Shown here piece by piece: positions 63,620 to 64,000 of a DNA stretch of 64,000 nucleotides. The notes under the pieces were generated by a model. It was given only the letters and a program-made list of their open reading frames with translations. It ran no database searches and was not told the DNA's origin. Source of the DNA: Cupriavidus sp. (GTDB lineage Bacteria > Pseudomonadota > Gammaproteobacteria > Burkholderiales > Burkholderiaceae); assembly GCA_031180665.1 (NCBI GenBank), contig JAPSLP010000015.1:1-64000 (forward strand), given 5' to 3'. Position numbers and translations under genes: made by a program. Positions within the stretch are counted from its first letter, which is position 1; the number at the start of each line of letters is the position of its first letter.

Positions 63620-63650
63620 GTTTCGGCGCGCTTGCCAAGCGTGCCGAAAC
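63620..63650. promoter_or_regulatory. 31-bp palindrome over the -35 of the aroG leader promoter
   Basis: Arms GTTTCGGCGCGCTTG (63620-63634) and CAAGCGTGCCGAAAC (63636-63650) around one C, with 14 of 15 positions pairing and one G-T. It covers the -35 hexamer, so a bound repressor would block RNA polymerase. It could also fold as a hairpin in read-through RNA from tldD. Confidence 0.6.
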
Positions 63651-63660
63651 GGGCTATAAA
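63632..63660 (+). promoter_or_regulatory. Promoter of the aroG leader transcript
   Basis: -35 TTGCCA (63632-63637), 17-bp spacer, -10 TATAAA (63655-63660). Transcription would begin near 63667, about 118 nt before the leader peptide. Confidence 0.65.
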
Positions 63661-63784
63661 GTGGCTTCGTCGCTGGCGCATCCGCCGCGGCGCGTGCGAT
63701 ACCGACGCAGTACAGACGCAGAAACAGACGCAAGCAGACGCAATAGCGACTCGATTCCGACTGATCACCGCCCTTCCCTTCCGC

Positions 63785-63856
63785 ATGTCCGCCAAGTTTT
63801 ACTTTTACTTTTTTAGCGATCTCGCACCGCTGGCGGAAGGAGAGGATCAGTCGTAA
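63785..63856 (+). CDS. Phe/Tyr-rich leader peptide, 23 aa
   Basis: ATG 63785 to TAA 63854-63856. The peptide begins MSAKFYFYFFSDLAP: four Phe and two Tyr codons in a row at positions 5-10. Its stop lies 2 bp after the 3' arm of segment 2, so a ribosome that finishes the peptide masks that segment. Such peptides sense charged tRNA-Phe and tRNA-Tyr. A weak point is the lack of a clear Shine-Dalgarno before the ATG. The 225-bp frame upstream of the ATG on the same phase is not believed to be translated. Confidence 0.7.
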   Translation: MSAKFYFYFFSDLAPLAEGEDQS

Positions 63857-63873
63857 GCGCCTCCCAAGATTGC

Positions 63874-63908
63874 AAAAAAGCCGCCAGCAGACCTGGCGGC
63901 TTTTTTTT
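63874..63908 (+). terminator. Intrinsic terminator in the aroG leader
   Basis: AAAAAAGCCGCCAG-CAGAC-CTGGCGGC followed by eight T: an 8-bp GC-rich stem that can extend by six A-U pairs. It lies 17 bp after the leader stop codon and 74 bp before the next gene. Confidence 0.92.
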
Positions 63909-63982
63909 GGCCCGACTTTCCCGCCGCTGCCGCGGCACCCGAATACCCCCACTCTCACGACCTGACAAGACCTGGAGCCATC

Positions 63983-64000
63983 ATGTTGAAGAACACCGAC
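63983..64000 (+). CDS. aroG: Probable DAHP synthase, first six codons (cut by window edge)
   Basis: Only MLKNTD is in the window, with TGGAG before the ATG. This matches the start I know for 3-deoxy-7-phosphoheptulonate synthase (AroG type) of Cupriavidus/Ralstonia, the first enzyme of aromatic amino acid synthesis. The Phe/Tyr-coding attenuator in front fits this role. Six residues cannot prove the identity; another aromatic-pathway gene is possible. Confidence 0.55.

Follow-up and report, generated by a model that had tools for sequence, protein, structure and literature searches.

The entry step of aromatic synthesis in E. coli is controlled by repressor proteins, and the DAHP synthase genes of gammaproteobacteria are repressed by TyrR, a DNA-binding protein. 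The pheL-pheA and pheM-pheST systems of enterobacteria rely on a Phe-rich leader with Phe-only control codons, alternative segments and an intrinsic terminator. For a DAHP synthase gene, attenuation is on record in the aroR-aroF system of Corynebacterium glutamicum, which has a Phe-Tyr-Phe leader (Neshat et al. 2014, as described in PMC11802643 and PMC4046766); by the account in PMC11802643, that leader responds to limitation for Phe and not for Tyr. In Vibrio, an attenuator has been predicted before the DAHP synthase gene of aroA(Y)-tyrA (Merino site, Table 7, PMC1173090). A survey of 196 genomes reports both TyrR and TrpR as absent from classes other than gammaproteobacteria (PMC5343134) and, as far as that survey goes, the control of this step in betaproteobacteria is therefore left open.

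In this study, we examine the region upstream of aroG in Cupriavidus sp. and in its relatives. The window, which is the whole stretch of DNA that was analysed, comprises 64,000 nt (GCA_031180665.1, contig JAPSLP010000015.1, positions 1-64,000, forward strand), and the closest named relative is Cupriavidus gilardii (L033), whose AroG is 99.7% identical. The findings make it very likely that a ribosome-mediated transcription attenuator sets the supply of DAHP synthase. By analogy, aroR-aroF would be the nearest known system. As its published accounts describe it, it shares transcription attenuation with an aromatic leader peptide before a DAHP synthase gene; it differs in belonging to an Actinobacterium and in having Phe-Tyr-Phe where the present leader has six codons, and the two are likened by description, not by sequence. 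For C. glutamicum, attenuation upstream of a DAHP synthase gene has already been described; an attenuator before a betaproteobacterial aroG appears to be new, no description of one having been found in the open literature, and an earlier prediction may exist in subscription papers. The pheL-pheA and pheM-pheST leaders (RF01859) likewise use alternative segments and an intrinsic terminator, but have other target genes and Phe-only control codons. The Vibrio element is computer-predicted, lies in an operon with tyrA and is tabulated with no leader peptide named. TyrR repression concerns the same enzyme step and is also control by aromatic amino acids, but TyrR is a DNA-binding protein. No Rfam 15 family reached its cut-off in the window or in 20 relatives, RF01859 (Phe_leader) scoring 26 bits on the window against a gathering cut-off of 55.

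The features of the region, in order along the window, are as follows.

63632..63660, + strand: promoter TTGCCA-17-TATAAA (hexamers TTGCCA 63632-63637 and TATAAA 63655-63660).
63785..63856, + strand: leader ORF, 23 codons plus stop, ATG 63785 to TAA 63856, MSAKFYFYFFSDLAPLAEGEDQS, no Shine-Dalgarno.
63788..63794, + strand: segment 1 (protector), can pair with 63831-63837; kept in only part of the relatives.
63797..63814, + strand: control codons FYFYFF, residues 5-10; synonymous variation among relatives.
63820..63843, + strand: possible local hairpin of the consensus fold (63820-63823 with 63840-63843, 63827-63828 with 63835-63836).
63829..63836, + strand: segment 2, 5' strand of the antiterminator, GCTGGCGG; drawn initially as 63829-63852.
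63874..63908, + strand: intrinsic terminator, 14-pair stem (63874-63887 with 63893-63906) plus T8 (63901-63908).
63881..63888, + strand: segment 3, common to the antiterminator (with 63829-63836) and the terminator; drawn initially as 63880-63888.
63893..63900, + strand: segment 4, 3' arm of the terminator; GGCGG invariant in 75/75 aligned sequences.
63983..64000, + strand, and on to L002:5062: aroG start, 359 aa, Shine-Dalgarno-like GGAG at 63974-63977.

The initial annotation had proposed the promoter, the ORF with FYFYFF and the terminator with eight T, and all three lie exactly where it placed them. It had also taken the gene at 63983 to be related to aromatic amino acids, and rightly so: the product is AroG, a DAHP synthase of the AroF/G/H type (NF006723, 595.8 bits against a cut-off of 568; PF00793), and the pathway of the control amino acids thus includes the structural gene. 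The reading frame of aroG continues beyond the window edge on the same contig (L002:3983-5062). The gene appears to stand alone, because the next likely gene 3' of it is on the opposite strand; that likely gene carries a CxxCH motif suggestive of a cytochrome c. One type-I DAHP synthase, AroG, is encoded in the genome (5.47 Mb assembly, 92% complete), and the type II family PF01474 had no match there; a further DAHP synthase gene could be missing, because the genome is 92% complete. On the 5' side, tldD precedes the leader in the same orientation, both in the window and in 60 of 78 relatives. It was not found directly upstream in 17 of the 77 loci whose sequence reaches far enough (the 78th, L037, stops too near to tell). 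The tldD-aroG neighbourhood is not fixed, the loci without an adjoining tldD being L034-L036, L038-L040, L090, L094-L096, L098, L101-L104, L107 and L112.

Given the position of the promoter, transcription would be expected to start near 63667. A TTGnnR-17/18-TATAAA pair lies 5' of the leader in 53/78 named relatives. A simple signal scanner called neither a promoter nor a terminator in the region, and it missed the promoter because its rule requires the second hexamer to end in T, and TATAAA ends in A. Between promoter and leader ATG, 22 aligned same-genus genomes (L010-L012, L014-L032) share a conserved block, GCGCAAT....TGCC ... GCagCATaAAt, that is absent from the window's own lineage (L003-L005). 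The block yielded no convincing consensus structure in those 22 genomes and may be a binding site or a second promoter.

The leader ORF sits inside a longer listed reading frame. Its FYFYFF is the single run of at least five F/Y codons in the six frames of the window, and the 18-base codon string occurs once in the 5.47 Mb genome, in the leader. A scan of named genomes, of which we read the best 80 AroG loci (from Burkholderiaceae, Oxalobacteraceae and Achromobacter), found a short aromatic-rich ORF before aroG in 78. The two exceptions are Candidatus Burkholderia humilis (L071), whose shifted leader frame extends beyond the terminator, and an Oxalobacteraceae MAG (L100), which has neither leader nor terminator and in which tldD lies close to aroG. 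These 78 of 80 loci uphold the proposal of Phe/Tyr control codons, to which Trp codons have to be added in many relatives. The remark that no clear Shine-Dalgarno precedes the leader ATG also extends to the relatives: a GGAG-like motif is present before 3 of 78 leaders and was not found before the other 75, whereas aroG itself has a Shine-Dalgarno-like motif in 76/78. Its absence before the leader is unusual, given that aroG has one; a precedent for a leader translated with no ribosome site is that of ilvB in C. glutamicum, going by a title cited in PMC4046766. A separate purine-rich, Shine-Dalgarno-like motif follows segment 2 (63837-63846) in 72/78 leaders, by a broad rule with no chance control; it may pair with pyrimidines before segment 2, or hold a ribosome near the leader stop codon.

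Codons were counted by frame in 135 distinct stretches before segment 2, both landmarks being present in 158 of 167 loci. The leader frame contains 25.1% F, 11.8% Y and 3.2% W, as compared to 0.3-1.1% Y and 0.2-0.4% W in the two other frames; the frame was picked by F plus Y, so that the F and Y percentages are biased and the W percentage is unbiased. The F/Y codons concentrate where 5 to 10 codons intervene before GGCGG, with an extra peak at 3, spacings that would keep segment 2 clear of a stalled ribosome. In 52 leaders, Tyr is encoded by TAC or by TAT, and the fifth codon is TTT or TTC, in varying proportions. These leaders were chosen by a pattern requiring aromatics at most positions of the run (4 of 56 were unmatched), and the count shows synonymous variation but cannot show an absence of amino acid changes. 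Tryptophan codons occur in 71 of the 135 stretches, and 46 of the 79 W codons occupy one shared position after the run, which probably reflects one inheritance. The runs of the four matches outside the order also contain W (FYFWYYF, FYWYYF, FYRWYYF and YWFYFFY).

The pairing segments were compared in an alignment of 75 sequences, made up of the window plus 74 named leaders out of 78; left out were L033, L095 and L104 as near-duplicates, L112 for its shifted frame, and L071 and L100 for want of an intact leader. All 75 share an invariant GGCGG core in segment 2, which is kept while the surrounding peptide differs (PLADREG, PTAVE, and shifted frames in L074, L106 and L112). The antiterminator helix (63829-63836 with 63881-63888) is paired in 91.6% of cells, as compared to 14.6-43.3% when slid. 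Antiterminator and terminator are mutually exclusive, segment 3 being used by both, in agreement with the earlier claim that pairing of segments 2 and 3 excludes the terminator. Complementarity between leader and terminator arm exceeded that of dinucleotide shuffles (P<0.05) in 16 of 19 loci picked from 79; L088, L096 and L107 gave no significant excess (P 0.53, 0.07 and 0.08), and the combined P of 1.6e-18 is overstated, related loci having been treated as independent. The terminator hairpin is fully formed in the fold of the window sequence, and an intrinsic terminator lies between leader and aroG in 79 of the 80 named loci. Both the aromatic run and the pairing segments, on which the initial annotation had staked its reading, are thus kept among the relatives.

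The compensatory changes it anticipated in segments 1-4 are borne out in the terminator, where 16 cells changed on both sides against 2.9 in shuffles, with A-U to G-C exchanges at 63880:63900 and 63886:63894; neither antiterminator nor protector covaries above shuffles. The antiterminator is nearly invariant, and covariation cannot test it because the helix hardly varies. The service of segment 3 in two helices would itself hinder change.

Of the four segments originally drawn, 2, 3 and 4 hold, as does part of segment 1: 63788-63794 is partly shared, and 63759-63784 is not conserved. The shorter helix (63788-63794 with 63831-63837) is paired in 83.0% of cells; among 73 distinct sequences, 23-24 disrupt two of the seven pairs, and no covariation above shuffles was seen. 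In folds that start at the promoter, upstream pairing sequesters segment 2 with a probability above 0.5 in 27/54 cases (0.86 in the window). The 63759-63784 arm does pair within the window sequence; the long protector, 63759-63784 with 63837-63852, is absent in relatives, even in the genus, and was rejected as a conserved part. The consensus fold has 17 pairs in all, and its only addition to the terminator is the local hairpin at 63820..63843. With segment 2 in its loop, this hairpin would be a candidate for holding segment 2 closed. It is paired in 93.6% of cells versus 53.0-61.4% when slid, and it is changed on both sides between Oxalobacteraceae and the rest, in 21 cells. This covariation is not above controls, as a control slid by two columns likewise gives 21 cells, and the 21 are probably one split between families.

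The region is matched by DNA in 35/35 same-genus genomes, and in 3 of 24 genomes of other families over a short piece around the terminator only. A leader with FYFYFF or a close variant is present in all 30 same-genus loci read, our own genome included; the reading omitted 6 of the 35 matches for which there was no locus, one of which (G009) was read later. A covariance model of the 75 sequences scores 110.6 bits on the window. Under strict filters, 83 of the 399 genomes sampled from the order (the window's own included), belonging to 50 of 158 genera, contain a match, and the other 316 contain none. All 83 matched loci have AroG, the match ending 20-148 nt before the AroG start (26 nt at L134), and a loose rule recognises the leader ORF in 79 of them. 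In 27 hand-picked genomes (L160 and L161 being the loci of G704 and G443), a slightly stricter leader rule was positive in 3 of the 27 AroG loci, all three of which match the model. Among 21 genomes that carry aroG and are negative by the model, no leader could be recognised in 20, and the remaining one has a weak leader missed by the strict filters. A class-wide sample gave matches in 8/369 genomes: our own, two of the same order, four outside the order and one false. The four, from two families, all lie before aroG. The false one, L151, also outside the order, was rejected as a chance match, because its run lacks a start codon and the locus has neither a GGCGG segment 2 nor AroG. Second copies in the window's own genome (G000) were rejected as well, the two further matches being the same hairpin read on its reverse strand and an isolated hairpin, with no AroG at L115. 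As judged from this sampling of genomes, the element is widespread but patchy, broad in range and probably old. In a genus of small genomes (1.7-2.1 Mb) within the window's family (L164-L167), aroG is 63% identical, and 4/4 loci have neither leader nor terminator.

From the observed parts, their conservation, their link to aroG and their mutually exclusive pairings, we infer translation of the leader, ribosome stalling, terminator read-through and the identity of the amino acids sensed. RNA polymerase would start near 63667, with a ribosome trailing it through the leader. When charged tRNA-Phe and tRNA-Tyr are ample, the ribosome would reach the stop codon at 63854 and cover segment 2, segments 3 and 4 would form the terminator, and aroG would go untranscribed. 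When these tRNAs are uncharged, the ribosome would wait in FYFYFF and leave segment 2, which starts 14 nt past the last control codon, free to pair with the emerging segment 3, and the polymerase would continue into aroG. The original proposal of attenuation before aroG is sustained, and its Tyr component is called into question, since the C. glutamicum leader ignores Tyr by the account in PMC11802643.

Folding was consistent with such a sequence of events. With a ribosome at the last F/Y codon and the transcript folded to segment 3, segments 2 and 3 pair (probability >0.5) in 79/79 cases, and with a stall in mid-run they do so in 76/79; the stop-codon state gives zero such pairing by construction and is not counted as evidence. 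The complete transcript at equilibrium forms the terminator in 54/54, and the switch must therefore act during transcription. As modelled, these results fit attenuation of the trp type during transcription. In the window, the leader stop codon is 17 nt beyond segment 2, which puts segment 2 at the edge of what a terminating ribosome could mask. In folds with no ribosome, the antiterminator still forms in 62/79 cases from the leader ATG and in 27/54 from the promoter, and the untranslated state is therefore not clearly "off" in all lineages. That pairing, at least from the leader ATG, would also suit a switch worked by a ligand or a protein with no leader translation (a riboswitch or an antiterminator protein), for which the local hairpin around segment 2 offers a candidate site. 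However, this small hairpin is all that the 17-pair consensus fold has besides the terminator, no Rfam family reached its cut-off in the window or the 20 relatives, and F, Y and W abound in the leader frame whereas Y and W do not in the other two; we consider such a switch very improbable.

Still less likely is that the hairpin is a plain terminator of tldD, with the aroG promoter downstream of it. The placement of tldD ahead of the leader in the same orientation, seen in the window and 60/78 relatives, is what such an arrangement would predict, but the promoter-like pair lies 5' of the hairpin in 53/78 relatives, and in 19/78 loci the gap between terminator and aroG is about 29-45 nt, too short for a promoter and a ribosome site. 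Moreover, the hairpin stays at aroG in the 17 of 77 loci where an adjoining tldD was not found, and the leader ORF and segment 2 would be left unexplained; a tldD terminator was rejected from this comparison of neighbourhoods, in which the leader appears to go with aroG and not with tldD. An equally slight chance attaches to the leader being a small functional protein, with a hairpin that merely tunes operon level. Its N-terminal MSAKFYFYFF is well conserved in Burkholderiaceae, as such a protein would be; against this, the peptide varies greatly from family to family and segment 2 does not, segment 2 falls in a shifted frame in three relatives, and a search of Pfam and NCBIfam with three leaders gave no match (at 21-23 residues, a weak test).

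Ribosome-mediated attenuation of aroG may extend to all three aromatic amino acids, as the Trp codons of many relatives suggest. We put forward tentatively, as conceivable rather than probable, that the element is an old, vertically kept sensor, in which a single leader would monitor charging of tRNA-Phe, tRNA-Tyr and tRNA-Trp together and set the only DAHP synthase. If this three-way reading is true, a leader in Burkholderiales has the role that TyrR and TrpR, with three feedback-tuned isoenzymes, play in E. coli, and the mix of F, Y and W codons in each lineage shows evolution tuning the weight given to each end product. An attenuator of aroG conserved across many families of Burkholderiales provides a concrete, testable answer to how the entry step of aromatic synthesis is controlled in these bacteria. 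It would define an RNA family for which no match was found in Rfam 15, and it could help in making aromatic compounds in Cupriavidus and Paraburkholderia.
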